NCBI RefSeq assembly: GCF_017968885.1
Contig: NZ_CP072913.1
Location: 6,116,501-6,180,500, forward strand
Length of the DNA: 64,000 bases
Direction: 5' to 3'
Origin: Pseudomonas sp. Tri1
GTDB lineage: Bacteria; Pseudomonadota; Gammaproteobacteria; Pseudomonadales; Pseudomonadaceae
Shown here: positions 10,850 through 61,805 of the stretch, in pieces
Layout: each line of letters starts with the position of its first letter
Position numbering within the stretch: the first letter of the stretch is position 1
Translations under genes and position numbers: made by a program
The notes under the pieces: generated by a model
Database searches by the model: none
Told to the model about the DNA's origin: nothing
Seen by the model: only the letters and a program-made list of their open reading frames with translations

Positions 10850-10873
10850 AAAACCCCGCCGAAGCGGGGTTTT
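10850..10873. terminator. Bidirectional intrinsic terminator
   Basis: AAAACCCCGC - CGAA - GCGGGGTTTT. It has T-runs on both strands. On the minus strand it would end transcripts leaving the acyl-CoA dehydrogenase at 11056-12834 before the Pmp3-type gene. The 344-base gap 10712-11055 holds this, a hairpin at 11020 and no gene. Confidence 0.85.
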
Positions 10874-11019
10874 GCAGACTGTTTCCCTGACATCCATTTC
10901 ACTCCGCCTTCCTGGCAGAATCCTACGTGTCCGTGTTGTTGCTTTGCGCATCCTGCGCGACGTCCATGTGAAGTAGATTAGCCCTGGATCCAATCTGCCG
11001 ATAGAGGGAAAACGCCAGC

Positions 11020-49352: not shown

Positions 49353-50246
49353 ATGCGCCGCCTGCTCACCGGCTGTTTCGTCACCCTGCTGCTGTTACTC
49401 AACACCCTGGTGCTGTTCGGCCCGCTGATGGTGTTCGCGTTGCTCAAACTGGTCCTGCCCGGGCGCTTTCGCGACTACGCCTCGTGGGCGGTGATGTGGA
49501 TCGCCGAGACCTGGGCCGAGATCGACAAGCTGATCTTTGCCCTGTGCATCCCCACCCGCTGGGACATTCGCGGCGGCGGTAACTTGCGGCGCGACACCTC
49601 CTACCTGGTGATCAGCAATCACCAATCCTGGGTCGACATCCCCGCCCTCGTCCAGACCCTCAACCGACGCACGCCATTTTTCAAGTTCTTCCTCAAGAAA
49701 GAACTGGTCTGGGTGCCCTTCCTGGGACTCGCCTGGTGGGCGCTGGACTATCCGTTCATGAAGCGCTACACCAAGGCCTTCCTGGCCAAGCATCCGGAAC
49801 TGGCCGGCAAGGATCTGGAAATCACCCGACAGGCCTGCGAGCTGTTCAAGCGCCAACCGGTCACCGTGGTGAACTACCTCGAAGGCACGCGCTTCACCGC
49901 CGCCAAAAGCCAACAGCAACAGTCACCCTTCACCCACCTGCTCAAGCCCAAGGCCGGTGGCGTGGCGTTCGTGCTCGCAGCCATGGGTGAACAACTGGAC
50001 GCGGTACTGGACGTGACCGTGGTTTATCCGCAAGCGCGCATTCCCGGGTTCTGGGACTTGATCAGCGGCGCGGTGCCCCGGGTCATCATCGACATCCAGA
50101 CCCGCGAACTGGACCCGGCGCTGTGGCAGGGCGATTACGAAAAAGACCCGGTGTTTCGCCAGCACGTGCAGGACTGGGTTAATAAGCTCTGGACTGAAAA
50201 GGACCGGCGCATCGCTGAGTTGCGCAACGAAGGGATTGGAACCTAA
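49353..50246 (+). CDS. LPLAT-family acyltransferase (YihG-like)
   Basis: Predicted membrane 1-acyl-glycerol-3-phosphate acyltransferase, 297 aa. The N-terminal membrane segment is LLTGCFVTLLLLLNTLVLFGPLMVF; the catalytic HX4D box is NHQSWVD (His90, Asp95); the acceptor motif is YLEGTRFT near 172-179, and a later PRVIIDIQTREL fits the fourth block. It is YihG-like by overall shape. The ATG at 49353 begins at the hydrophobic segment. It is the last recognisable core gene before the accessory RHS region. Confidence 0.88.
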   Translation: MRRLLTGCFVTLLLLLNTLVLFGPLMVFALLKLVLPGRFRDYASWAVMWIAETWAEIDKLIFALCIPTRWDIRGGGNLRRDTSYLVISNHQSWVDIPALVQTLNRRTPFFKFFLKKELVWVPFLGLAWWALDYPFMKRYTKAFLAKHPELAGKDLEITRQACELFKRQPVTVVNYLEGTRFTAAKSQQQQSPFTHLLKPKAGGVAFVLAAMGEQLDAVLDVTVVYPQARIPGFWDLISGAVPRVIIDIQTRELDPALWQGDYEKDPVFRQHVQDWVNKLWTEKDRRIAELRNEGIGT

Positions 50247-50263
50247 CAGTTCTGATAGTAGGC
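50243..50263. promoter_or_regulatory. Diverged copy of the accessory palindrome, upstream of rhs1
   Basis: CTAACAGTTCTGATAGTAGG: outer CCTA...TAGTAGGC as in the copies at 54796 and 56643, but shorter and with altered half-sites. It closely resembles the copy at 59369 upstream of the fifth RHS gene, and lies about 64 bases before the first. Confidence 0.45.
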
Positions 50264-50326
50264 AGCGGCTGAAAAAGCTCCGATGCTAGAGGTCCGGATG
50301 TTTGGACCTGGCACGGAGTTCGGAGC

Positions 50327-51361
50327 ATGCCTGATGCCCCTCGTGGAACCGTATTGTGTCGCTACCGCTACGACCCGCTGGATCGATTGGTCGATTGTGC
50401 ACCTTCCGCTGAGGCTGGTATTCAGCGCTTTTATTGCAAAAGTCGATTGGCTACGGAGATACAGGGCGCGGTGCAGCGAAGCGTTTTCCAGCATGACGAC
50501 CAGTTGTTGGCGCAACTTCGATGCGAGGATGTGAAGATCGATACCACCCTGTTGGCGACCGATCAGCAGCGGTCGGTGTTGAATGTGCTCGATGCGAACC
50601 GGCTTCATCCCCTTGTCTATACACCTTACGGCCATCGCCCGGCGGAAAATGGCTTGCTCAGTTTGCTTGGGTTTAACGGCGAACGGCCGGATCCGGTAAC
50701 GAGACATTATTTGTTGGGGAATGGGTATCGGGCGTTCAATCCGGTGTTGATGCGGTTTAATAGTCCGGATAGCTGGAGTCCGTTTGGTGGGGGCGGGCTG
50801 AATGCATACGTATATTGTGGAGGAGATCCGAGGAATCGGACAGATCCTTCAGGGCATATTTGGGGGATAGGAAAATTCTTCAGAAGGGTATCCAACTTGA
50901 GGCCAAAAGCGCTTAAAAGTACACAGTCAACACAATTACTTATTGCAAAACGGCCCTCATTAAGCTCTATATCAATACCTGAGCAATACTCACCGATACC
51001 ACCAATCTCTGTACCTGAGAAACGCTCACCGCCCCCACCAATCTCTGTACCTGATCAACAATCACCGGCACCACCAATTCCCCCAAAAAATGCATCGAAA
51101 CCACTGCGACCGGTTACAAAACCAAAACCATTACCAACAAACTTCACTATCATAAATAAGAAAGTCTTTATCACCTTGCCTAACGCACCAGACCATGTCT
51201 TTGTTGCTCCATATCCGTTAGACAACAAATCTATAAGTGCGCTTAGAAAAGAAGGCGTCCACATCCATCCCAGCTTACTGTCTACGCCCAGAGACAACTC
51301 CAGATTCAAGCAAGGCTTTGATCCTGGGCCTGAAATCGCGGACCTCCGCCAAACCCCATGA
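50327..51361 (+). CDS. Standalone RHS-core tip protein with proline-rich tail (rhs1)
   Basis: Protein of 344 aa with no RHS repeat shell. It begins directly with CRYRYDPLDRLVDC, then TTLLATDQQRSVLNVLDANR, YTPYGHRPAENG and the RHS-associated core LLGFNGERPDPVT ... RAFNPVLMRFNSPDSWSPF (about 112-165), ending DPSGH. The tail after about 215 is proline-rich with three tandem 12-residue units, then a unique domain TNFTIINKKVFITLPNAPDH to the end. The tail has lower G+C than the core. No signal peptide. It resembles the C-terminal part of TccC/Rhs toxins; toxicity is not shown and no immunity gene is obvious. Confidence 0.8.
   Translation: MPDAPRGTVLCRYRYDPLDRLVDCAPSAEAGIQRFYCKSRLATEIQGAVQRSVFQHDDQLLAQLRCEDVKIDTTLLATDQQRSVLNVLDANRLHPLVYTPYGHRPAENGLLSLLGFNGERPDPVTRHYLLGNGYRAFNPVLMRFNSPDSWSPFGGGGLNAYVYCGGDPRNRTDPSGHIWGIGKFFRRVSNLRPKALKSTQSTQLLIAKRPSLSSISIPEQYSPIPPISVPEKRSPPPPISVPDQQSPAPPIPPKNASKPLRPVTKPKPLPTNFTIINKKVFITLPNAPDHVFVAPYPLDNKSISALRKEGVHIHPSLLSTPRDNSRFKQGFDPGPEIADLRQTP
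50969..51076 (+). repeat. Three 36-bp tandem repeats in rhs1
   Basis: Three in-frame 12-codon units of pattern I-S-[IV]-P-[ED]-x-x-S-P-x-P-P, forming a proline-rich linker between core and tail. Copies 2 and 3 start identically (ATCTCTGTACCTGA). Copy number could vary by slippage. Confidence 0.85.
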
Positions 51362-51402
51362 ACGAAAAAAACGACTCGTTTAATTCCAAATCAACATAAA
51401 AA

Positions 51403-51420
51403 ACTGTCAACCCTGACAGT
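51403..51420. promoter_or_regulatory. Accessory palindrome ACTGTCA-ACCC-TGACAGT
   Basis: Perfect 7-bp inverted repeat with a 4-base ACCC spacer, followed by AGCCC, 58 bases before the secreted-protein gene at 51479. The flanks (AACATAAA before it) match those of the copy at 52730. Confidence 0.65.
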
Positions 51421-51478
51421 AGCCCTCACCAACCACAGCCGCAAACATGTCGCCGGGACATATTGCGGAGGCAAGTCC

Positions 51479-51886
51479 ATGCGAAACTTCATAACGGACG
51501 GCGGCGCTGGAATGTGCTTGCTGATCATCGGCCATGTCCATGCCGGAGAAGTCACCTGCCCGGCGGCAACACAAATCCATGGCACCACTGAAACAATAGA
51601 AATCCAAGATGATCGCCAATGGCAGAGCCAGGACCTAGGACAAGAGGCCAACCCGGCGGTACTGCAACTTAACGACGCCGAGTTCGCGATCCATGAACCC
51701 GACGAAGATGAACAGATACCGAGGAGAGTGACCATCACCTGCAATTACGGCGAGAACAATCTCACGCTGGATTACCTCGACTTCCAAGGGCCGACATCGT
51801 TGCCCTTGGTGCCCAACCGTTGCGCCAGCCGAGACGCCAACACCTGCAGGCGCGCGAGCGCCGACTACTTCAGCTTGAGATTCTGA
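51479..51886 (+). CDS. Small secreted four-cysteine protein (DUF3757-like), copy 1
   Basis: Protein of 135 aa. Hydrophobic N-terminus MCLLIIGHVHAGE looks like a signal peptide cleaved after HVHA; the mature part starts EVTCPAAT. Four further conserved positions with its paralogue at 52803: Cys in TITCNYG, in PNRCASRD and in NTCRRA, with DYFSLRF at the end, so two disulphides are likely. It resembles DUF3757-type small pseudomonad proteins, but I am not certain of the family. GGAGG lies seven bases before the ATG. It carries the accessory palindrome in its promoter. Confidence 0.72.
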   Translation: MRNFITDGGAGMCLLIIGHVHAGEVTCPAATQIHGTTETIEIQDDRQWQSQDLGQEANPAVLQLNDAEFAIHEPDEDEQIPRRVTITCNYGENNLTLDYLDFQGPTSLPLVPNRCASRDANTCRRASADYFSLRF

Positions 51887-51922
51887 TGGTTTCGTGGCGG
51901 ACTTTCGATGTCGCCACCTTCA

Positions 51923-52498
51923 TCAAACACCCGCACCCGTGCCCCAAATCCCCCCCAGGTACTGCAACAACGAACCGGCAACCCCTTGCTGACCAAGGTA
52001 CTGCAGGATGATCGGGGCAAACTGCCCAATCATCCCACTGTCCATGCCCAGCGCACTGAATGCGTTGTTCAGGTCATTGGTGTCCTTGACGTTACCCAGC
52101 AACCCGTCGAGCAAGGCGTTTTTATCCGAGCCACCACCGAGCAAACCACCCAGGCCATTGAGCCCGCCGATGGCGCTGTTTCCGGCGATCTGGTCCAGGC
52201 CCGGCACACTTTTGCTCAATTCGGAGAACTGCGGCTCGCTGAGCCGATTCTTCGCCAGCCCCAGCATCGCACCGGCACCGCCGATGGCCTGTTCCGGGGT
52301 GATCTTGAGTTCCGAGCCCAGGGTATTGAGCAGCCCCGCGGCTTTCGGTGCAGCGGCCACGACACCCTCCTCCTCACCTGAGTTGCCCTGCATCGCCGAC
52401 ACCACAATCGCCGCATCGCTGAGACTGAACTGCGCGAAAGCCGGGCTGGCGGCCAGAGTCAACAGGCAAGACAGTGCAAAACCGCGTGAAACCTTCAT
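51923..52498 (-). CDS. DUF2780 (VcgC/VcgE-like) secreted protein
   Basis: Protein of 191 aa with a signal peptide MKVSRGFALSCLLTLAASPA ending in FAQFS. The mature part is alanine/glycine-rich with LLNTLGSELKITPEQAIGGAGAMLGLAKNRL and a C-terminal LGMDSGMIGQFAPIILQYLG, the pattern of the DUF2780 family. Function unknown; periplasmic or exported. The start is uncertain because Met codons also occur 3 and 10 codons earlier. It is the only minus-strand gene between the acyltransferase and fdhA, apart from the fdhA fragment. Confidence 0.8.
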   Translation of the reverse strand: MKVSRGFALSCLLTLAASPAFAQFSLSDAAIVVSAMQGNSGEEEGVVAAAPKAAGLLNTLGSELKITPEQAIGGAGAMLGLAKNRLSEPQFSELSKSVPGLDQIAGNSAIGGLNGLGGLLGGGSDKNALLDGLLGNVKDTNDLNNAFSALGMDSGMIGQFAPIILQYLGQQGVAGSLLQYLGGIWGTGAGV

Positions 52499-52729
52499 CC
52501 GGGACATCCTCTTGAACATGAAAAAACCGCCCATATAGAGCGGCGTAAAGCGTGCTTTGGACTGGCGCGAACAGCTATTGTTCCTAGGCGTTGTATGCGC
52601 TTCGACCGACAGTTATTACAGACAAATCTTTCAAGACAGTGGGAAACATCTGATTTAACGAGAATCGAGTCATTTGTTATCGCCAAAAGTTACCAAACAT
52701 CCCTACACAGTTCTAAATTGACATAAATA

Positions 52730-52747
52730 ACTGCCAACCTTGACAGT
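52730..52747. promoter_or_regulatory. Accessory palindrome ACTGCCA-ACCT-TGACAGT
   Basis: Same element with one mismatch in the left half, followed by AGCCC, 55 bases before the second secreted-protein gene. A matching ACATAAATA flank lies upstream. Confidence 0.6.
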
Positions 52748-52802
52748 AGCCCGCCCGGCCAAAGCCGCGAGTATCGCTTAACGGAGCCAAGGAGCTTGGC
52801 AA

Positions 52803-53231
52803 ATGAAAAAAATACCGGCTGGAGGCGCGGTGTTACTCATGCTGATCATCGGCCATGTCCATGCCGGTGAAATAACGTGTCCGGCCGCTACAAGCATTCA
52901 TAGGAACATTGAAGCGCTGGAAGACGTTTACTCTGTCGACGGGCAGGAAAATCACGAATGGGCGAGCGAAAGCCTAGTGGACGTGATTGACCCGACCTCG
53001 CTGCGATTCGAAGGGGCCGAGTACGTTATCCATGAGTCCGACGAGGATAAGCAAGCAGCCAGGTTAGCGACCATCACTTGTAGGTACGGGGATATAAATC
53101 TGAAGTTGGCGTATCAACAGATCCTGGAACCGGCATTTTCAAGATGGGCGAACAATCGCTGCGAAAGCCGGGATACCCGAATGTGCAGGTTGATGGACAA
53201 CGATTACTTCAACCTGATTTTTGATAGGTAA
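52803..53231 (+). CDS. Small secreted four-cysteine protein (DUF3757-like), copy 2
   Basis: Paralogue of the 51479 gene, 142 aa, with MLIIGHVHAGEITCPAAT, the ESDEDKQAARLATITCRYGDINLKL block, NRCESRD and MCRLMDNDYFNLIF. The signal peptide and the cysteine positions match copy 1 while the middle differs more. Promoter regions are also homologous, so gene plus promoter was duplicated, with the DUF2780 gene now between the copies. Function unknown. Confidence 0.72.
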   Translation: MKKIPAGGAVLLMLIIGHVHAGEITCPAATSIHRNIEALEDVYSVDGQENHEWASESLVDVIDPTSLRFEGAEYVIHESDEDKQAARLATITCRYGDINLKLAYQQILEPAFSRWANNRCESRDTRMCRLMDNDYFNLIFDR

Positions 53232-53317
53232 TGGCAACTCGGTCACTGTTCTCTCAAAGCATCCTGCATCGCCTGCACAGTTACCGTACAGTGCGGCTCC
53301 TCCAGCAGAGTTTGCCT

Positions 53318-53893
53318 ATGAACGTAAAAATCGGCGGCGCGACCCTCGCGGTCATCCTGACGGGGATGCTCATTGCCCTGGGCGTCAACGAATGCCAGCG
53401 CGGCCCGCTGAATCCGGAACTGGCCGACGGCATCAGTGAAGAGCAGAAGACTTGGCTGACCATCGAGCACCGCATCAAGCGCTCCGACCCGGCCCTGATC
53501 GATGTCAGCCGCGATCAGCAAGCGCTAACCGTGCTTTACCGTCCAGGTGCTTGCGCAAATGACTGCGAGCCCTGGGTTCCGCACATGCTGCGTGTTGTCG
53601 GCCATGGCCTGGCAGCGCTCAATGGCGCGCCAGGGGGCAAGCAATACACGCAAGTGACGGTCAAGGCGCGCCTGCTGGCCGATGATGACGTGGAACTGGT
53701 CTACGACATGCCGGGCTTCGACGCGATCAAGACACAGCAGGAGGGCTACGTCACCTTTGCCAGCATGCCCCGCACCCTGAATTTCAGCGAGGACGCCTTG
53801 GCTCAAGCGCGAGACTATTGCCAAGGCCCTAGCACCCAGGGTTTCTACCCTGAATTCTGCGAGCGGGTCAGGACCGCAACGGCCCATCAATAA
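53318..53893 (+). CDS. Membrane-anchored protein of unknown function
   Basis: Protein of 191 aa. One N-terminal hydrophobic helix (IGGATLAVILTGMLIALGV) anchors it, leaving a periplasmic domain with cysteines in NECQRG, GACANDCEPW, DYCQGP and EFCERV. I do not recognise a family. I chose the Met at 53318, just before the helix; the frame stays open to 53231. It follows the second secreted-protein gene by 86 bases, but with no clear link. Confidence 0.65.
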   Translation: MNVKIGGATLAVILTGMLIALGVNECQRGPLNPELADGISEEQKTWLTIEHRIKRSDPALIDVSRDQQALTVLYRPGACANDCEPWVPHMLRVVGHGLAALNGAPGGKQYTQVTVKARLLADDDVELVYDMPGFDAIKTQQEGYVTFASMPRTLNFSEDALAQARDYCQGPSTQGFYPEFCERVRTATAHQ

Positions 53894-53912
53894 CCGTGGC
53901 GAGGGGATTTTT

Positions 53913-54025
53913 GATCGTTCCCACGCGCAGCAAGGAATGCATCCCGTGACGCTCTACGTCACCTTACAAAAGCGGAACGCGGAGCGTCCCTGGCGACATT
54001 CCCACGCAGGAGCGTGGGAACGATC
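53913..54025. repeat. GATCGTTCCCACGC inverted repeat element
   Basis: Ends GATCGTTCCCACGC and GCGTGGGAACGATC, with internal GACGCTCTACGTC and GGAACGCGGAGCGTCCC. A second copy lies at 62904-63011. GTGGCGAGGGGAT and ATCCCCTCGCCAC fragments of another family flank it (about 53896 and 54111). The 53894-54278 stretch holds no gene I can support. Confidence 0.75.
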
Positions 54026-54278
54026 GATGAACTCAATCTTCCTGGCACACCGAGTTGCCTGGTTTGGGGCCGCTACGCATCCCAGCGGGGCGGTGCGACC
54101 TTTCGCTGAATCCCCTCGCCACAATCGGCGGTGTTCCGGCCCGAATATTCGCGACCAAAAATCTTACAACTACTTGGGAAATCACCCGCAGTGGTGAGCC
54201 TTGCGCCGCCCAATGTGCGCTGCCTATAGTTCGTCCCGTCGTCCATATGGCGACTCGGGTTTGGCGACTCGATACACT

Positions 54279-54473
54279 ATGGTCAGAAGCCCTGCTTTTT
54301 GGCACGGGCTTTTGCACTCGCAGAACTGCTCAATGGCGGTTGTGCGCGGGAGGCCTTCGGGTCTGCCGGCTTCCATGGTGTCCGGTTCGCCAACCTGCGT
54401 ACAGCTGCCACCCATTCGTTTGGCGACGAGTGAGTGGCGGCATCATCGAACCCCATGGAGATCTACCGAATGA
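54279..54473 (+). CDS. Possible small ORF coupled to the 54470 gene
   Basis: A 64-codon frame starting MVRSPAFWHGLLHSQNCSMA and containing GRPSGLPASMVSGSP and VQLPPIRLATS. This pattern distantly recalls Ash/Icd-like small proteins. Its stop overlaps the next start as ATGA, the usual sign of translational coupling. There is no strong ribosome-binding site, so it may instead be a leader region. Family assignment is weak. Confidence 0.35.
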   Translation: MVRSPAFWHGLLHSQNCSMAVVRGRPSGLPASMVSGSPTCVQLPPIRLATSEWRHHRTPWRSTE

Positions 54474-54742
54474 ACCGATACATGCCCATCACCGGCGTCG
54501 ACTGCCCCCCCGCCACCCTGCTCATCGACACCCAAGCCCCCCTCGACGTCCTCTCCGAAACCGCTGCCTACCGCATCCGCGCCGTCACCCAGGTGCTGGA
54601 AAACATCGCTTTTCGCGAGGAGATCAGTTCCGACGCCGTAGTCCTCCACGACTTCGCCCTGCTCCTAGCGATTCCGTTGCGCGATGGCTGTGACGTACTG
54701 GACGTGATCGGCCGACGCTTGCAGGCGCAAGTCATGGCATGA
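54470..54742 (+). CDS. Small conserved-type protein of unknown function (DUF3077-like)
   Basis: Protein of 90 aa, starting MNRYMPITGVDCPPATLLID, without membrane segments or signal. It resembles the small DUF3077-type proteins common in Pseudomonas, a weak assignment. Its last 14 or so codons (DVIGRRLQAQVMA) and the DNA that follows are duplicated at 56547 onward, where they are fused to an fdhA fragment. It lies upstream of the first csp-rhs cassette. Confidence 0.6.
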   Translation: MNRYMPITGVDCPPATLLIDTQAPLDVLSETAAYRIRAVTQVLENIAFREEISSDAVVLHDFALLLAIPLRDGCDVLDVIGRRLQAQVMA

Positions 54743-54795
54743 CCGCCCCTGGCAGTCATCTGAATATCACCTGCGGTCAGTTATTTCCTCTCGGT

Positions 54796-54827
54796 ATTGC
54801 CTACTGTCAACTTTGACAGTAGGCAAT
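54796..54827. promoter_or_regulatory. Accessory palindrome, 15-bp arms, upstream of csp1
   Basis: ATTGCCTACTGTCAA - CT - TTGACAGTAGGCAAT: a perfect 32-base inverted repeat, the longest copy of the set, 104 bases before csp1. The core ACTGTCA-ACTT-TGACAGT matches the other copies. Confidence 0.7.
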
Positions 54828-54868
54828 CGTTTGGGCCGACTCTAAGCTCCAGCTATGACAACGAAAAC

Positions 54869-54901
54869 AAGGCCACGGGCGACCCAAGCGCCCAGGGCCT
54901 T
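54869..54901 (+). promoter_or_regulatory. Hairpin in the csp1 5' leader
   Basis: AAGGCC...GGCCTT enclosing GGGCG - ACCCAAG - CGCCC, then TATTC. The csp2 leader has a different but also paired helix at the same place (56716-56755), so pairing rather than sequence is kept. It could be an RNA thermosensor-like element or attenuator. Confidence 0.5.
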
Positions 54902-54930
54902 TATTCATTCGGGCAGGCAGGACAATAAAA

Positions 54931-55131
54931 ATGAGCGACCGAATTCAAGGAACCGTTAAATGGTTCAACGATGCAAAGGGCTATGGCTTTATCACGTGCG
55001 GCACGGGAGGCGAGGAGCTGTTCGTTCATTTCTCGGCGATAGCCGGCGAGGGTTATAAAACGCTGAAAGAAAGACAGCCCGTTTCCTTTGAAGTGGAGAA
55101 AGGCCCAAGGGGTTGCAGGCCACACGGGTGA
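54931..55131 (+). CDS. Cold-shock domain protein with frameshifted C-terminus (csp1)
   Basis: CspA-family protein, 66 aa as read. RNP1 KGYGFI (16-21) and RNP2 FVHF (31-34) are intact, with [13 protein letters not shown] and [15 protein letters not shown]. The end reads PRGCRPHG, whereas csp2 ends in [11 protein letters not shown]. The bases after about 55107 encode LQATRVTPE in another frame, so one A appears to be missing. The last beta strand is therefore lost and function may be reduced. rhs2 starts 35 bases downstream, so the two are probably co-transcribed. Confidence 0.8.
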
Positions 55132-55166
55132 CGCCGGAGTGAAAACAATCCATCAGGGGGCAGTCT

Positions 55167-56192
55167 ATGTTGGCGTATCGTGAAACGCCGCTCTGTCTCT
55201 ACCGTTACGACCCATTGGATCGCCTGGCCGATTGCACGCCATCGGCCCAGGCCAGTATCCAGCGCTTTTATCTGAAAAGCCGCTTGACGAGCGAGATACA
55301 AGGTTCGATACAGCGTTCGATTTTCCAGCAGGACGCCCAACTTCTGGCGCAACGACAGCGCCAGGATGGCGCCGTTGAAACCACCTTGCTCGCCTCCGAT
55401 CAACAACGCTCGGTATTGCACGCTCTCGATGCTACGCGACTTTATCCCTTCGCCTATACTCCCTACGGGCACCGCCCCCTGGAAAACGGCTTGCTCAGCC
55501 TGCTCGGCTTCAACGGCGAACGACCGGATCCGGTGACCGGGCATTATTTGTTGGGTAATGGGTACCGGGCGTTCAACCCGGTGTTGATGCGGTTCAACAG
55601 CCCGGACAGTTTGAGTCCGTTTGGGGAGGGTGGGTTGAATGCCTATACCTACTGCGTTGGAGACCCAGTAAATCGGAAAGACCCAACAGGTCGCTACAGC
55701 TCATTTTTTTCTACCTATTCTTCATTCCGATCTTCCTGGTTCGCAGTATTTACTGAGCGAAAGCCCTGGCAATCCCAGCCTGCACTTTCATTGCCTAGCC
55801 AAAAGATCGAAGGCATTGATAGAGTAGTTATAGACAGTATCAATCACTACAAACCCAACTCAAAAAGACTCATCACCAGCGCAGACAATGCCATTCACCA
55901 TGCGAAGCTGATCGGCCATCGCAGCAAAATAATTGAGCTGCTTAAAATCACCAAAGAAAAACTACATGCGTATGCGACCGACAGTACCAACATCATAAAA
56001 AAAATCAAAGAGACTCTTAGCTATGACTCTCTTTCAAATAGCGACGCTCCGACAGAGCATCAAATCGCCATCACCGAATATAAACACCGATTTGAACAGC
56101 TTCACTTTAAAACCGCCCAAGAAACCTATGAGCTAAATAGCGAGCTGGCTGAAAAACTCGGCCTGCGACTGTCCGCCATCCGTGAAACATGA
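55167..56192 (+). CDS. Standalone RHS-core tip protein with helical tail (rhs2)
   Basis: Protein of 341 aa: LCLYRYDPLDRLADCTP, FYLKSRLTSEIQGSIQRSIF, ETTLLASDQQRSVLHALDATR, YTPYGHRPLENGLLSLLGFNG, then the RHS-associated core to DPTGR (about 175). The tail (about 180-341) has lower G+C, is lysine- and isoleucine-rich, is predicted helical (NIIKKIKETLSYDSL, EHQIAITEYKHRFEQLHF) and has no match I recognise. AGGGGG precedes the ATG. It follows csp1 by 35 bases. No immunity gene follows: next is the fdhA fragment on the other strand. Confidence 0.8.
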   Translation: MLAYRETPLCLYRYDPLDRLADCTPSAQASIQRFYLKSRLTSEIQGSIQRSIFQQDAQLLAQRQRQDGAVETTLLASDQQRSVLHALDATRLYPFAYTPYGHRPLENGLLSLLGFNGERPDPVTGHYLLGNGYRAFNPVLMRFNSPDSLSPFGEGGLNAYTYCVGDPVNRKDPTGRYSSFFSTYSSFRSSWFAVFTERKPWQSQPALSLPSQKIEGIDRVVIDSINHYKPNSKRLITSADNAIHHAKLIGHRSKIIELLKITKEKLHAYATDSTNIIKKIKETLSYDSLSNSDAPTEHQIAITEYKHRFEQLHFKTAQETYELNSELAEKLGLRLSAIRET

Positions 56193-56243
56193 CGCTCGCG
56201 ACCAGCTTGGCAGCCAACCAGTTAAAAGTTGCCCAGTGCCAAT

Positions 56244-56546
56244 AAAAAGGGCGACATCACTGTCGCACTTTCCCCGTCTTGCCCTTTACCGCTTACGCCG
56301 CACTGAACAACTTGTGCGGATCAATCACAAACTTCTTCAGCACGCCCGCATCGAACTCGCCATACCCCTTCGGCGCGTCATCCAGGCTGATGACCTGCAC
56401 ACCGACGATTTCGGCGATGGTGATGCGGTCCCACATGATCGCTTGCATCAGTTGGCGGTTGTACTTCATTACCGGGGTCTGGCCGGTGTGGAAGCTGTGG
56501 GATTTCGCCCAGCCCAGGCCGAAGCGGATGCTCAGGCTGCCCATTT
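56244..56546 (-). pseudogene. fdhA 3' fragment
   Basis: The minus strand encodes MGSLSIRFGLGWAKSHSFHT through the C-terminus KFVIDPHKLFSAA, nearly identical to the last 83 residues of fdhA at 60606 (differences at INIA/ITIA and VPKK/VLKK). A degraded copy of the fdhA-side terminator hairpin lies at 56245-56271. The fragment stops abruptly at about 56546, where it joins the 3' end of the small-gene duplicate. It has no start or promoter and is a duplication remnant. Confidence 0.9.
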
Positions 56547-56589
56547 GGACGCGATTGGCCGGCGCTTTCAGGCCCAAGCCATGGCATGA
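56547..56589 (+). pseudogene. Duplicated 3' end of the 54470 gene
   Basis: Encodes DAIGRRFQAQAMA plus stop, matching DVIGRRLQAQVMA of the 54470 gene. Homology continues for more than 130 bases downstream through the palindrome into the csp2 leader. It marks the left edge of the second copy of the tandem duplication. Confidence 0.85.
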
Positions 56590-56642
56590 CCGCCTCTGGC
56601 AGTCATCCGAATATCACCTGCGGTCAGTTATTTCCTCTGGGT

Positions 56643-56674
56643 ATTACCTACTGTCAACTCTGACAGTAGGCAAC
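56643..56674. promoter_or_regulatory. Accessory palindrome upstream of csp2
   Basis: Core ACTGTCA-ACTC-TGACAGT (56650-56667) within TTACCTACTGTCAA ... TGACAGTAGGCAA. It is the homologous partner of the 54796 copy, with a few arm mismatches, 112 bases before csp2. Confidence 0.65.
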
Positions 56675-56715
56675 CGTTTGGGCCGATTCTAAGCTCCTGC
56701 TGTGACAACGAACAC

Positions 56716-56755
56716 AAGGCACAAGGCTATGGGCAACCCACAGTCCCTGTGCCTT
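56716..56755 (+). promoter_or_regulatory. Hairpin in the csp2 5' leader
   Basis: AAGGCACA...TGTGCCTT, eight paired bases, followed by TCTTC. It corresponds to the AAGGCC/GGCCTT helix of the csp1 leader with changes on both sides of the stem. Confidence 0.5.
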
Positions 56756-56785
56756 TCTTCATTCGGGCCAGCAGGAAGAATAAAA

Positions 56786-56998
56786 ATGAGCGACCGAATC
56801 AAAGGAACCGTTAAATGGTTTAACGACGCAAAGGGCTATGGCTTCATCACTTGTGGCAAAGGAGGCGAAGAATTGTTCGTTCATTACTCCGCGATATCCG
56901 GCGAGGGTTATAAAACATTGAAGGAAAGGCAAACCGTCTCCTTTGAAATCGAAAAGGGCGACAAAGGCATGCAAGCCACGAGAGTGACGCCGGAGTAA
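56786..56998 (+). CDS. Cold-shock domain protein (csp2)
   Basis: Full-length CspA-family protein of 70 aa, [20 protein letters not shown] then [21 protein letters not shown], ending [14 protein letters not shown]. Both RNA-binding motifs are intact. It binds single-stranded RNA/DNA by family. It is the intact sister of csp1, and rhs3 starts 26 bases downstream, so csp2-rhs3, and perhaps rhs4, form an operon. Its promoter carries the accessory palindrome. Confidence 0.88.
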
Positions 56999-57024
56999 CC
57001 ATCGGTTCACTCAGGAGTTAATCC

Positions 57025-57765
57025 ATGTCGACGAACCGTGAAACGCTGCTCTGCCGTTACCATTACGACCCATTGGATCGCTTGGCTAATTGCACCCCTC
57101 CCGCTCAGGCCAGCATTCAGCGCTTCTATCTGAAAAGCCGACTTGCCTCCGAGATACAGGGTTCAATACAGCGCTCGATTTTCCAGCAGGACGATCATCT
57201 CCTGGCGCAACAACAGCGCCAGGATGACGCCGTTGAAATCACTTTGCTCGCCACCGATAAACAACGCTCGGTATTGCACGCGCTTGATGCAACGCAGCTC
57301 CATCCTCTCGTCTACACACCTTACGGCCATCGCCTCCCCGCAAGTGGCTTACTCAGCTTGCTTGGTTTCAACGGCGAACGATCGGACCCAGTGACCGGGC
57401 ACTACTTGTTGGGTAATGGTTATCGAGCGTTCAATCCGGTGTTGATGCGATTTAACAGTCCGGACTCGATGAGCCCATTCGGAAAAGGTGGTTTGAATGC
57501 TTATGTATATGGCCAAGGTGACCCTATTAACACCTTAGATCCCACTGGACATTTCAACCTCTCCACTTTAAACCCCTTCGCGTTCAACCCCTTTAAATGG
57601 TTTAAATTTAAAACACCTGAGATGGAGCTCAATGTCCATGGTATAAAATTGCGCCTGCCTCGTGACAGGGAAGACATAAAGTTTTTCGAAAAGCCTACGA
57701 AACCTTTTATAACGAGAAATATATTTGACCCAGAACATGAAATTTACACCCCCCCGGTAGCGTAA
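57025..57765 (+). CDS. RHS-core tip protein, tail cut by a frameshift (rhs3)
   Basis: Reads as 246 aa: LLCRYHYDPLDRLANCTP, ATDKQRSVLHALDATQLHPL, YTPYGHRLPASGLLSLLGFNG, and the core MRFNSPDSMSPFGKGGLNAY to DPTGH. The tail begins HFNLSTLNPFAFNP and includes NVHGIKLRLPRDREDIKFFE, a motif shared with rhs4 and rhs5. The frame ends just after a run of seven C (57749-57755). One more C would continue the frame to 58064, giving about 346 aa, the length of its sisters. AGGAG precedes the ATG. Confidence 0.78.
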   Translation: MSTNRETLLCRYHYDPLDRLANCTPPAQASIQRFYLKSRLASEIQGSIQRSIFQQDDHLLAQQQRQDDAVEITLLATDKQRSVLHALDATQLHPLVYTPYGHRLPASGLLSLLGFNGERSDPVTGHYLLGNGYRAFNPVLMRFNSPDSMSPFGKGGLNAYVYGQGDPINTLDPTGHFNLSTLNPFAFNPFKWFKFKTPEMELNVHGIKLRLPRDREDIKFFEKPTKPFITRNIFDPEHEIYTPPVA

Positions 57766-58064
57766 GCCTTTCCGAGCGTGAAGCGATACTCAAAACGAAC
57801 AATAGGAAAATAATTATATTCGAAGAGCATTTAGCTAATGAATTAAAAATCAGCCCAAAACTTAGATCGCCGGGATTCCAAAAAATAATGGATACGGCAC
57901 AAAAAATGAAGGTAACTTACCAACAAGAACTTGCGGATTTCAACATGACCGTCGACTGGATAAATGAAAATACCTCTACAAACACATCAAACCCCGCCCC
58001 TCCATCGTTTGAATGGGTCAGGCGCAATGCGTCATCTATACGCAATCAAGGACAAACAAGCTAG
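57757..58064 (+). pseudogene. Out-of-frame remainder of the rhs3 tail
   Basis: In the shifted frame it encodes GSVSLSEREAILKTNNRKII, later FQKIMDTAQKMKVTYQQELA and NPAPPSFEWVRRN, then TAG. Its layout (helical stretch, then a P-P-[SF]-[YE] end) parallels the tails of rhs4 and rhs5. It is not translated unless the C7 tract changes length or slips. Confidence 0.75.
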
Positions 58065-58270
58065 TCTTCAATACTTATCAAGAGCAGTAACACTGCGTAT
58101 TTAGCTTTGCTGGCTTTAAAGAGTGCGACGCTGCCGTCTCACACAGTTTCATTATTAGCGGTAAAGGACGGAAGTGTTGAATTAGACGCCTCCTTCGAGA
58201 GAGGAGGATCAACGGATTACAAGCCCAATAATGGCGCTGGGATAACAGCCGGCCTATCGGGGAGCTAACC

Positions 58271-59272
58271 ATGTCAACGAACCGGACAACATTGCTCTGC
58301 CGCTACCATTACGACCCGCTAGATTGTTTGGCTGATTACACACCATCGACCGAGGTCCGCACCCAGCGCTTCTACCTGAAAGAGCGCCTGGCCAGCGAAA
58401 TCCAGGGTCCGGTACAGCGGTCGGTTTTCCAGCAGGACGACCAACTCCTGGCGCAACAACAGCGCCAGGATGACGCCGTCGAAACCACGTTGCTCGCCAC
58501 CGATAAACAACGCTCGGTATTGCACGCGCTTGATGCAACGCAGCTCCATCCTCTCGTCTACACACCTTACGGCCATCGCCTTCCCGCAAGTGGCTTACTC
58601 AGCTTGCTTGGTTTCAACGGCGAACGGTCGGACCCAGTGACCGGGCACTACTTGTTGGGTAATGGTTATCGGGCGTTCAATCCAACGCTGATGCGCTTCA
58701 ATAGCCCGGATTCGATGAGCCCATTTGGAAAGGGTGGGTTGAACGCTTACGTATATGGCCAAGGTGATCCTATTAACACGATAGACCCTACTGGACATTT
58801 TATCTTTCCCAACCCTATCAAAGGACTCATGAATTTGACAGGGCTTAAAACCCCAAAAACAACCCTTTACGTTCAGAATATTAAATTGCGCATTTTGCCC
58901 AGCGACGAAGAAATGGATTTCTTTGAAGCCCCCACAATACAATTTATACCGAAACTACGTTTAAGCCCGGAACAGCAAAACCCAAGAATCCAAAACCTAG
59001 AAAACAGGCTAATCGAGAATAGCGCAATATTAATTGGTCATGAGAGGCAGGCAGCACTCGAAATAAAAGCCGGACGCCGCACAGAATCCAAGTTCGATGT
59101 CCTTTTGGAGACGATATACTCCGATAGATCAAGCCATAATGAAAATCTGAGGACTTATGAGAAGTTGCTTCGCGAAGTGCCCCGCCCGCCTCACCATGAC
59201 GCCACTTCTGATAACCCACTACCGAATCGAGCATCGCCCTCAATTGGAAAGCAAATACGTAGACAAGTATAG
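58271..59272 (+). CDS. Standalone RHS-core tip protein (rhs4)
   Basis: Protein of 333 aa: LLCRYHYDPLDCLADYTPST, VETTLLATDKQRSVLHALDA, the core from LLGFNGERSDPVTGHYLLGN to DPTGH, then a tail with LYVQNIKLRILPSDEEMDFF, LENRLIENSAILIGHERQAA and the end LLREVPRPPHHD. A stretch of about 190 bases in the core is almost identical to rhs3. GGGGAG lies seven bases before the ATG. It probably shares the csp2-rhs3 transcript, since no palindrome lies directly upstream. Confidence 0.8.
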   Translation: MSTNRTTLLCRYHYDPLDCLADYTPSTEVRTQRFYLKERLASEIQGPVQRSVFQQDDQLLAQQQRQDDAVETTLLATDKQRSVLHALDATQLHPLVYTPYGHRLPASGLLSLLGFNGERSDPVTGHYLLGNGYRAFNPTLMRFNSPDSMSPFGKGGLNAYVYGQGDPINTIDPTGHFIFPNPIKGLMNLTGLKTPKTTLYVQNIKLRILPSDEEMDFFEAPTIQFIPKLRLSPEQQNPRIQNLENRLIENSAILIGHERQAALEIKAGRRTESKFDVLLETIYSDRSSHNENLRTYEKLLREVPRPPHHDATSDNPLPNRASPSIGKQIRRQV

Positions 59273-59368
59273 GAGTGCCTCCCTTATCAAAGACGCGATC
59301 GGCGCTACTGATCCTTGGCTGGCTTTCAAGGTTATTTCTGTGCTGTTGCGTGGGAGACTGCTATCAAC

Positions 59369-59391
59369 CTAACAGAACTGCTAGTAGGCGA
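59369..59391. promoter_or_regulatory. Diverged accessory palindrome upstream of rhs5
   Basis: CCTAACAGAACTGCTAGTAGGC, close to the rhs1 copy at 50243. A further half-site, GTCACAGTAGCCC, lies at about 59407-59419. rhs5 starts 60 bases after the first element, so it likely has its own promoter. Confidence 0.45.
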
Positions 59392-59450
59392 CCTTATCAA
59401 AATACGTCACAGTAGCCCCTGAAAAGTTCATACGCCATGGAGTACTGCTC

Positions 59451-60431
59451 ATGCCATCCGAGCGCGAAAGTCTGCTCTGCCGATACAGCTACGACCCTTT
59501 GGATCGCCTAATCAATTGCCTACCAACAACTCAGATCAACTTGCAACGTTTCTATATCAAGGGTCGTCTAACCACAGAAATTCAGGGAATGGCACAGTGC
59601 TCTATCTTTCATCTAGAGACCCAGCTTCTGGCGCAACAACAGCGCCAGGATGGCGCCGTCGAAACCACGTTGCTCGCCACCGATCAACAACGCTCTGTAC
59701 TACATGCACTCGACGCAACGCGGCCTCATCCTCTCGCCTACACACCCTACGGTCACCGTGCTCCAGAAAACGGTTTACTCAGCCTGCTCGGCTTCAACGG
59801 CGAACAACCAGACCCGGTGACCGGCCACTATTTGTTGGGCAATGGTTATAGGGCGTTCAATCCAACGCTGATGCGTTTCAATAGTCCGGACTCGATGAGC
59901 CCGTTTGGAAAGGGTGGGTTGAATGCCTACGCGTATGGCCAAGGTGACCCTGTAAATAGAGTGGACCCTACTGGCCATTTCAGCCTCGTGAAACCAATAA
60001 TGAATTTTATAGCGTTTATAACGAATAAAAAAACCGTGACTGTTCATGGGATAAAATTGCGCGTCCCGACAAATACGAAACTGAAGGCTTTCATCACAGA
60101 ACCGACCGAGAAATATGAAACACAATTGGATCTCTTCTGGACTGAAGAGAAACGTATAGATGAGGTCAGTAATTTTGAACGCTATATAATCGAGAGCAAT
60201 ACTAAACTCATTGCAGACGAGACGACGGCTGCAAAAATGATAAAGCGATCATGGCCGACTCGCGCCAATAAAGCCCTTTACACCGAATTAACCGTTCAAA
60301 TAAAAAGGAACAGAGCCCAGTACAAACACGACCTAGATGTTCTCAATAGTTTAATCCGCGAGACAAAACGCCCGCCCAGTTATGATGAAGTCTTCGAACT
60401 TCCACTACCACGTTACAGAGCATCATTTTAA
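59451..60431 (+). CDS. Standalone RHS-core tip protein (rhs5)
   Basis: Protein of 326 aa: LLCRYSYDPLDRLINCLPTT, YIKGRLTTEIQGMAQCSIFH, VETTLLATDQQRSVLHALDA, the core to DPTGH, then a tail beginning HFSLVKPIMNFIAF with TVHGIKLRVPTNTKLKAF, a long charged helical part (NFERYIIESNTKLIADETTA) and the end LIRETKRPPSYDEVFELPLP. The first 60 residues are more divergent than in rhs2-rhs4, so it is an older copy. GGAG precedes the ATG. It converges with fdhA across a shared terminator. Confidence 0.8.
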   Translation: MPSERESLLCRYSYDPLDRLINCLPTTQINLQRFYIKGRLTTEIQGMAQCSIFHLETQLLAQQQRQDGAVETTLLATDQQRSVLHALDATRPHPLAYTPYGHRAPENGLLSLLGFNGEQPDPVTGHYLLGNGYRAFNPTLMRFNSPDSMSPFGKGGLNAYAYGQGDPVNRVDPTGHFSLVKPIMNFIAFITNKKTVTVHGIKLRVPTNTKLKAFITEPTEKYETQLDLFWTEEKRIDEVSNFERYIIESNTKLIADETTAAKMIKRSWPTRANKALYTELTVQIKRNRAQYKHDLDVLNSLIRETKRPPSYDEVFELPLPRYRASF

Positions 60432-60605: not shown

Positions 60606-61805
60606 TTACGCCGCACTAAACAACTTATGCGGATCAATCACAAACTTCTTCGGCACGCCCGCATCGAACTCGCCATACCCCTTCGGCGCGTCATCCAGGC
60701 TGATCACCTGCACACCGACGATTTCAGCAATGTTGATGCGGTCCCACATGATCGCCTGCATCAGTTGGCGGTTGTACTTCATCACCGGGGTCTGGCCGGT
60801 GTGGAAGCTGTGGGATTTGGCCCAGCCCAGGCCGAAGCGGATGCTCAGGCTGCCCATTTTTGCCGCGGCATCGACGGCGCCCGGGTCTTCGGTGACGTAG
60901 AGGCCGGGGATGCCGATTTTGCCGGCCACGCGAACCACGCCCATCAGCGAGTTGAGCACGGTGGCCGGGGCTTCGTGCTTGACGCCTTCATGGCCGTGAC
61001 CACGGGCTTCGAAGCCCACGGCGTCGACGGCGCAATCGACTTCCGGTTCGCCCAGCAGCGCGGCGATCTGTTCGTGCAGCGGGGTGTCCTTGGACAGGTC
61101 GGCGATTTCAAAACCCTGGGCCTTGGCGTGGGCCAGGCGAATCGGGTTGACGTCACCGATGATCACCACGGCGGCACCCAGCAGGCGCGCGGAAGCGGCG
61201 GCCGCCAGGCCAACCGGGCCGGCACCAGCGATGTAGACGGAGCTGCCAGGGCCAACGCCGGCGGTGACGGCGCCGTGGTAGCCGGTCGGCAGGATGTCGG
61301 ACAGACAGGTCAGGTCGCGGATTTTCTCCATGGCCTTGTCGCGGTCCGGTAGTTTCAGCAGGTTGAAGTCGGCGTACGGCACCAGCACGTATTCGGCCTG
61401 GCCGCCGGTCCAATCGCCCATGTCCACGTAACCGTAGGCACCGCCGGCACGGGCCGGGTTGACGGTCAGGCAGACACCGGTGTGTTGCTCTTTGCAGGAA
61501 CGGCAGCGCCCGCAAGCCACGTTGAACGGCACCGACACCAGATCACCGATTTTCAGGTTCTCGACGTCGCTGCCCTTTTCGATCACTTCACCGGTGATTT
61601 CGTGACCCAGGACCAGACCGGTCTGGGCGGTGGTACGGCCGCGCACCATGTGTTGGTCGGAGCCGCAGATGTTGGTGGAGACCACGCGCAGGATGACACC
61701 GTGCTCAATCTTCCTGCCGCGCGGGTCCTGCATTTTTGGATAGTCGATTTTCTGTACTTCGACCTTACCGTTGCCGAGATACACGACACCACGATTGCCA
61801 GACAT
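60606..61805 (-). CDS. fdhA: Glutathione-independent formaldehyde dehydrogenase
   Basis: Zinc- and NAD-dependent enzyme oxidising formaldehyde to formate, 399 aa. Catalytic zinc ligands: Cys47 in STNICGSDQH and His68-Glu69 in LGHEITGE; structural zinc cysteines 98, 101, 104 and 112 in ACGRCRSCKEQHTGVC; NAD motif GAGPVGLAAA. With soxG and purU upstream on the same strand, it removes formaldehyde released by sarcosine oxidation. Its 3' end was duplicated at 56244-56546. Confidence 0.95.
   Translation of the reverse strand: MSGNRGVVYLGNGKVEVQKIDYPKMQDPRGRKIEHGVILRVVSTNICGSDQHMVRGRTTAQTGLVLGHEITGEVIEKGSDVENLKIGDLVSVPFNVACGRCRSCKEQHTGVCLTVNPARAGGAYGYVDMGDWTGGQAEYVLVPYADFNLLKLPDRDKAMEKIRDLTCLSDILPTGYHGAVTAGVGPGSSVYIAGAGPVGLAAAASARLLGAAVVIIGDVNPIRLAHAKAQGFEIADLSKDTPLHEQIAALLGEPEVDCAVDAVGFEARGHGHEGVKHEAPATVLNSLMGVVRVAGKIGIPGLYVTEDPGAVDAAAKMGSLSIRFGLGWAKSHSFHTGQTPVMKYNRQLMQAIMWDRINIAEIVGVQVISLDDAPKGYGEFDAGVPKKFVIDPHKLFSAA

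Follow-up and report, generated by a model that had tools for sequence, protein, structure and literature searches.

Putative lux-box-type operators before rhs, cold-shock and secreted-protein genes across Pseudomonas, and a LuxR solo as candidate regulator

We analysed a stretch of 64 000 nt from Pseudomonas sp. Tri1 (NZ_CP072913.1, positions 6 116 501 to 6 180 500; hereafter the window), in which short palindromes stand before genes of cold-shock proteins (csp), of small secreted-type proteins and of small proteins with an RHS core (rhs). We observed by computation that these elements have a regular placement before genes, that they recur throughout the genus and that their presence correlates with a LuxR-type gene located between fpr and rsmC. 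From the sequence patterns we lean towards a reading in which the palindromes are lux-box-type operators of a genus-wide regulon and the product of the fpr-rsmC gene is the regulator.

Two classes of palindrome in the window and in the genus

The strict element, ACTGYCA-N4-TGACAGT (ACTGYCANNNNTGRCAGT), is present in the window in four copies without mismatches, at 51403, 52730, 54803 and 56650, with the spacers ACCC, ACCT, ACTT and ACTC, respectively, and with AGSC directly 3′ of each copy. The gaps to the start codons of two secreted-type and two cold-shock genes are 58, 55, 110 and 118 nt. By our arithmetic, the chance of a single exact copy per 64 kb is ∼0.001. With up to three mismatches allowed, we found 10 matches versus 7.85 expected, i.e. 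no excess; as such a count is at chance level, only near-exact copies carry weight. An earlier sequence-only reading of the window had listed four near-identical elements with ACYY spacers, followed by AGSC, 55–118 nt before genes, and all four were confirmed as exact copies. As independent cases they do not stand: the csp blocks are a duplication (75–91% alike in pieces), and so are the secreted genes (72% over 111 nt). The four copies thus represent two independent origins. In four of five csp upstream regions TCTAAG was seen 20 nt past the element, with CCTAAG in the fifth (by eye). The elements and the genes around them are as follows.

50243..50258, +: Rhs-class lux-box-like element CTAACAGTTCTGATAG, then TAGGC; 68 nt before rhs1
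50327..51361, +: rhs1, small protein combining an RHS repeat-associated core with a C-terminal tail of its own (TIGR03696, E 5.7e-19)
51403..51420, +: strict element ACTGTCAACCCTGACAGT; 58 nt ahead of a gene for a secreted-type protein
51479..51886, +: small secreted-type protein, four cysteines after a signal-like start (by eye); no match in Pfam / NCBIfam
52730..52747, +: strict element ACTGCCAACCTTGACAGT; 55 nt ahead of the other such gene
52803..53231, +: second small protein of secreted type, a paralogue of the one at 51479
54803..54820, +: strict element ACTGTCAACTTTGACAGT; palindrome 7 bp longer on either side
54841..54846, +: possible −10 element TCTAAG, 20 nt 3′ of the strict element (by eye)
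54931..55131, +: csp1, cold-shock domain protein, 66 aa (PF00313, E 1.7e-24)
55167..56192, +: rhs2, 35 nt past csp1
56650..56667, +: strict element ACTGTCAACTCTGACAGT; 118 nt before csp2
56688..56693, +: possible −10 element TCTAAG, 20 nt 3′ of the strict element (by eye)
56786..56998, +: csp2, cold-shock domain protein, 70 aa (PF00313, E 1.8e-28)
57025..57765, +: rhs3
58271..59272, +: rhs4
59369..59384, +: Rhs-class element CTAACAGAACTGCTAG, then TAGGC; 66 nt before rhs5
59451..60431, +: rhs5, small RHS core protein (TIGR03696, E 1.6e-21)

The rest of this genome (6.7 Mb) holds one more exact copy of the strict element and seven copies with one mismatch (∼4 one-mismatch copies expected by our arithmetic); at two or fewer mismatches the genome gave 93 matches versus 94 for the reversed control, no excess. 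Three of these eight further copies (L006, L010, L011) have no clear target gene, while five precede a plausible start, as judged from open reading frames (ORFs) and Pfam/NCBIfam matches:

copy before a Pr6Pr membrane protein, gap ∼110 nt
copy before a polysaccharide-lyase-like secreted protein, gap 106 nt
copy before a trypsin-like protease, gap ∼65 nt (by eye)
copy before a ricin-lectin-like protein, gap 52 nt
copy before an Rhs gene at 1670576, start uncertain: the frame is open through the element and the next ATGs are ∼100–145 nt downstream

Of 298 Pseudomonas genomes searched, 57 contain ACTGTCAACNNTGACAGTAG and none matched the reversed control. A search for CTACTGTCANNNNTGACAGTAG over 84 980 species gave at least 119 stretches; among the 80 loci listed, 79 belong to Pseudomonas and one to Streptomyces. 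The strict element is genus-wide and is not private to the region of the window; the earlier view of a small regulon tied to this region is not supported.

To describe placement, we took the 79 listed Pseudomonas loci together with the window, with 93 copies of ACTGTCA-N4-TGACAGT in total. Genes were predicted by a simple codon-usage script, which misses some genes. None of the 93 copies was inside a predicted gene; a start was present within 260 nt of 74 copies and absent for 19. The sequence-only reading had named random placement over the genome as the outcome that would speak against it, and by these counts the strict element is not placed at random.

The genes behind the strict element (within 260 nt; both neighbours counted where divergent) formed 37 sequence clusters (23 single genes). 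The largest cluster is a SET-domain family with 20 members, one of them tested by Pfam; other clusters include csp, delta-60 repeat, RCC1 repeat, Tc-toxin-like A (VRP1), C-like (Rhs core), Ig-like repeat, trypsin-like protease, Hsp70 and small four-cysteine proteins. For 20 proteins given to Pfam, 17 from target clusters and three from other own-genome sites, a threshold of 0.001 left seven without a match, and L114 and L118 had only matches below Pfam's own cut-off. In SET orthologues fetched by protein, at least 12 of the 14 core bases were retained 101–143 nt upstream of the match in 27 out of 30 cases; no such element was found at this distance in L212, L223 and L226. The element is kept even before SET orthologues merely 45–50% identical in protein. 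At a number of loci (L125, L110, L070, L072, L126 and others) the strict element is extended by a locus-specific perfect palindrome, up to 15 bp per side, above chance.

The elements before rhs1 and rhs5 had been taken for diverged copies of the strict element. We found that they are not decayed strict copies but members of a second class, which is frequent upstream of small Rhs genes. An exact CTNNCA-N4-TGNNAG was present in 43 of 83 small-Rhs upstream regions, while Markov shuffles gave 0.5 on average and 3 at maximum; the 83 regions (60 fetched, a further 18, and five from the window) were chosen without regard to the motif. The 39 boxes of this class located 40–160 nt before the protein match have the consensus CCTAGCAGTTCTGCTAGT. 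In the own genome there are four sites matching CTANCANWNYTGNTAG (reversed control, 1 and 2). Three of them precede small Rhs genes, including rhs1 and rhs5, and the fourth precedes a gene with no assigned family, followed by a gene for a 1661-aa protein with RHS repeats and an Rhs core.

Lux-box pattern and a LuxR solo as candidate regulator

Both classes match CT-N12-AG with dyad symmetry over 16–20 bp, and both stand upstream of start codons, the placement expected of lux boxes. In the parts available to us of the papers cited here and below, CT(N12)AG is given as the RhlR site of P. aeruginosa (PMC2018727), and the afe-box of the LuxR-type AfeR from Acidithiobacillus ferrooxidans is given as GCTGTCAA-NN-TTGACAGC, overlapping the −35 element within a 30-bp palindrome (PMC3759942). 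Given the fit to CT-N12-AG and the afe-box half-sites CTGTCA/TGACAG, we read the elements as putative lux-box-type operators. The earlier reading did not recognise the motif as a known operator; that it is an unknown one is not supported, while a shared promoter-proximal operator of dimer type before csp, rhs and secreted-protein genes is supported as a prediction from sequence; in all, the observation made in the sequence-only reading is confirmed and its interpretation is partly supported.

Among known systems, the las-rhl boxes of LasR and RhlR are alike in having CT(N12)AG in promoters of quorum-controlled genes; they differ in that paired signal synthases are known in P. aeruginosa, whereas the targets here are Rhs/Tc-like and other accessory genes (PMC2018727). 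The afe-box shares its half-sites with the strict element, with the −35 overlap and the longer palindrome as its features; it precedes the luxI-type gene afeI (PMC3759942), whereas no box was found before the candidate regulator described below. The phz-boxes of PhzR in P. chlororaphis PA23 are LuxR-type boxes before quorum-controlled genes, and one putative phz-box precedes an operon with a gene annotated as 'Type IV secretion protein Rhs'; unlike the elements studied here, they have another consensus and belong to a paired PhzI/PhzR system (PMC7048289). By eye, a −10-like sequence is located 20 nt past the csp element and ∼25 nt past the SET and rhs elements, so that the spacing is constant inside a family and differs by ∼5 bp from one family to another; the TCTAAG-like sequences may be −10 elements.

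Five proteins with an autoinducer domain and 36 GerE-domain matches were found in the own genome. The most likely regulator is a LuxR solo, tied to the boxes by correlation only:

G000:5806830-5807540: own-genome fpr-rsmC LuxR (PpoR type)

The protein matches PF03472 (E 2e-23) and PF00196 (E 3.1e-17), and its best PDB match is QscR. Its gene is flanked by ORFs that we named as ferredoxin-NADP reductase and rsmC-type methyltransferase; these flanking ORFs are matched at 100% by L320, which is the same locus, and at 81–88% in other genomes. The same position, between genes of ferredoxin-NADP reductase and an rRNA methyltransferase, and the same pair of autoinducer and GerE domains are described for subgroup A / PpoR (PMC8546723, PMC2703642, PMC11543582, PMC10134790), the most widespread LuxR solos of fluorescent pseudomonads (PMC8546723). 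The available parts of these four papers on subgroup A, PpoR and PplR name neither an operator, nor Rhs targets, nor a form at fpr-rsmC reduced to the helix-turn-helix (HTH) domain. In a pplR mutant, 79 of the 84 changed genes fall, as expected of an activator (PMC11543582).

The strict box, TACTGTCA-N4-TGACAGTA, was present in 30 of 80 sampled genomes (control, 0 of 80). In each of the 30, a LuxR-type gene stands between fpr and rsmC; 28 of these genes are full-length by hit, being relatives at E ≤ 1e-45 with both fpr and rsmC alongside, and two are HTH-only (118 aa in G020 and 85 aa in G068). A single Autoind_bind hit was obtained in nine of the 30 genomes, and in eight of these nine it was the fpr-rsmC gene. 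At 11 of 15 candidate loci (L350–L356, L358–L361), the fpr-rsmC position is occupied by HTH-only LuxR proteins of 77–133 aa in place of the full-length solo.

Several other ways to a regulator were dropped. LuxR genes adjoining the elements were not a likely source, as tblastn with the five own LuxR proteins against the fetched element loci found one GerE stretch only (L110). Autoregulation could not serve for identification, with no box upstream in any of 30 ppoR-type loci. The LuxR-type gene L020 (G000:C1:2727940-2728650), located near a trpC-like ORF, was rejected as a general regulator since its next hits in 79 other Pseudomonas genomes have 41–42% identity.

In the recognition helix of the fpr-rsmC LuxR, the residues aligned with VNFH are directly preceded by R-T or S-T. 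Helix class was assigned in 59 of the 80 genomes (46 RT and 13 ST), with 21 having no clear hit or not read. The strict box is present in 29 of 46 RT-helix genomes versus one of 13 ST-helix genomes. We considered 12 small-Rhs upstream regions, all but one from ST-helix genomes (the helix of G110 was not read), and saw seven exact boxes, two of which are one site seen from both sides; their spacers are TTTT, AATT or ATTG, versus GTTC-like ones elsewhere.

Before the 80 genomes were searched, we wrote down the prediction that the TTTT-spacer box CTRGCATTTTTGCYAG would be confined to ST genomes. It was found in five of the 80 genomes, all with the ST helix (reversed control, 0 of 80), i.e. in 5 of 13 ST-helix versus 0 of 46 RT-helix genomes. 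Two of the five, G024 and G025, are the genomes of first sighting; G045 and G077 are new correct cases, and the helix of G065 was read after its hit. The Fisher test gave p = 0.0003 for all genomes, 0.004 without those first seen and 0.024 with G065 also left out, all uncorrected for phylogeny. At 11 of the 14 TTTT-box sites an ORF of at least 90 aa starts 45–103 nt downstream; at L456 and L460 the only ORFs were called from within the element, and L461 has none nearby. Four of the first ORFs past TTTT boxes are Rhs by word match.

Evidence against the proposed regulator and alternative explanations

A number of observations weigh against the fpr-rsmC LuxR as the protein that reads these boxes. 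The threshold E ≤ 1e-45 was picked after the hits were seen, and the RT/ST split is one of two residues, made after the sequences were seen. The same threshold is passed in 14 of 50 genomes without the strict box, with weaker fpr-rsmC relatives in others; thus, the gene is not sufficient for boxes. The strict box is absent from 17 RT-helix genomes, and the TTTT box from 8 of the 13 with an ST helix. Three ST-helix genomes are exceptions to the helix rule: G084 carries six strict boxes, and in G083 and G114, which are not among the 80, a 13/14 element precedes the SET gene. The fpr-rsmC LuxR gene has an in-frame TGA in G074, a genome with four strict boxes nonetheless, and matches in two pieces in G088 and G065. 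Within 600 nt upstream of the regulator, an exact CTNNCA-N4-TGNNAG was absent in 30 of 30 ppoR-type loci. Should the proposed −10 elements be correct, the box would be centred at about −41.5 for csp but ∼5 bp farther upstream in the SET and rhs families. As to published data, in the parts available reporters for a subgroup A member revealed no target among the flanking genes (PMC8546723), no Rhs gene appears in the tables for PpoR over-expression (PMC2703642), and the printed rows for the pplR mutant (∼20 of 84 genes) show none either (PMC11543582). Finally, shared ancestry could produce both the co-occurrence of box and regulator and the match of helix and box type.

Some of these observations would be met by another FixJ/LuxR-type (GerE) protein reading the same lux-box-like operators, e.g. 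a second LuxR solo, a small HTH-only protein encoded elsewhere or a NarL-type response regulator. The genome with its 36 GerE matches and five autoinducer-domain proteins offers candidates; the box-bearing genomes with a stopped or broken fpr-rsmC gene (G074, G088), the three ST-helix genomes that retain strict or near-strict boxes and the lack of visible autoregulation in 30 loci point in the same direction. We regard this explanation as possible, though rather unlikely, given that the fpr-rsmC gene is the sole Autoind_bind hit in eight of the nine single-hit strict-box genomes, that the TTTT box was seen only with the ST helix and that nothing closely related to the own solo L020 was seen in the 79 other genomes.

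Explanations with no LuxR-type protein appear weaker. The elements could act as hairpins, i.e. RNA structures of the 5′ untranslated region, terminators or single-stranded DNA recombinase sites. Covariation in the flanks of the strict class beyond the core is indeed not explained by dimer binding: in 73 non-SET elements offset 3 is paired at 0.79 versus 0.34 expected, and 16 of the 73 have six or more extra pairs, while shuffles gave a mean of 2.9 and a maximum of 9. L046, moreover, reads as a terminator followed by T8. The stem, however, is conserved in sequence while the loop varies, and the outermost core base is unpaired in 12 of the 27 SET orthologues with the element. In the Rhs class, the free core pair 3–12 and the flanks are paired about as expected, although pair 2–13 is above expectation (0.85 vs 0.63). 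With little or no excess pairing at pair 3–12 and the flanks, we rejected a pure RNA hairpin, and hairpin action in any of these forms is unlikely.

CTGT-N8-ACAG, the enterobacterial SOS-box core, is contained in the strict element, so that a LexA-like repressor or another palindrome-reading one (TetR, GntR) might bind TACTGT-N8-ACAGTA. The Rhs-class elements, however, stand at similar genes and similar distances without CTGT (GT occupies positions 3–4 in just 5 of 78 half-sites), and to our knowledge no identified target family is an SOS gene. The LexA box was rejected, as the strict class contains this core and the Rhs class does not; a repressor of this kind is very unlikely. We consider it extremely improbable that the copies reflect nothing but shared descent, with upstream regions duplicated along with genes and having no present function. 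The four window copies do lie in duplications; on the other hand, 37 gene clusters, 23 of them single genes, follow the strict element, and it is retained in the SET orthologues with 45–50% protein identity.

Neighbouring features and the proposed regulon

Given the 35-nt gap, rhs2 is probably co-transcribed with csp1, and rhs3 probably with csp2. There was no exact CTNNCA-N4-TGNNAG within 430 nt upstream of rhs4, which is possibly read from the csp2-rhs3 transcript. The tail of rhs1 contains a 36-bp unit repeated three times in tandem (50969–51078), encoding a proline-rich repeat. A C4 antisense RNA (54329–54415, +; RF01695, 81.6 bits) is located immediately ahead of a 90-aa gene at 54470 and upstream of the csp1 element, and the small RNA RsmY is at 10850–10967 (−; RF00195, 122.9 bits). 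Inside the csp-rhs array, a piece at 56293–56577 (−) matches the C-terminal end of a dehydrogenase-type gene at 60606–61805 (−; named by eye). In several other genomes, an ORF resembling the antisense of the same gene adjoins the csp cassette, which suggests repeated insertion at the 3′ end of the dehydrogenase-type gene.

In the reading that we prefer, the fpr-rsmC LuxR (PpoR type, a subgroup A solo), reduced in some species to its DNA-binding domain, would bind operators of the general form CTNNCA-N4-TGNNAG, located ∼50–150 nt before start codons and near the promoter −35. Binding would activate small Rhs genes, whether or not they are paired with a cold-shock gene, as well as genes for Tc-toxin-like A and C, SET-domain, delta-60 / RCC1 repeat, protease, lectin and other secreted proteins. 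The targets switched on in the window would be rhs1, both secreted genes, both csp-rhs pairs and rhs5. Proteins with the RT helix would prefer the 54803 type and the CCTAGCAGTTCTGCTAGT type, and the ST-helix protein the CTGGCATTTTTGCCAG type. We somewhat favour the view that the fpr-rsmC LuxR binds the lux-box-type elements and activates the genes behind them; we infer the binding, the activation (rather than repression) and, for the full-length form, an acyl-homoserine-lactone signal.

A wider picture is put forward tentatively, as possible rather than probable. The fpr-rsmC solo might activate, throughout the genus, a regulon for antagonism and secretion (small Rhs, csp-rhs, Tc-like, lectin, protease and SET-domain genes), with lux boxes that changed together with the recognition helix. 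Foreign acyl-homoserine lactones might then trigger weapon genes, and several lineages might have lost the signal domain, with only a DNA-binding protein of 80 residues left in charge of this regulon.

The operator is of a known kind; the regulon described here was not found in the literature that we searched. An operator with named target genes gives the widespread subgroup A LuxR solos likely targets and opens their function to direct tests. In addition, Rhs and Tc-like genes would have a switch in common, and the system may present a natural case of an operator and a recognition helix changing together.

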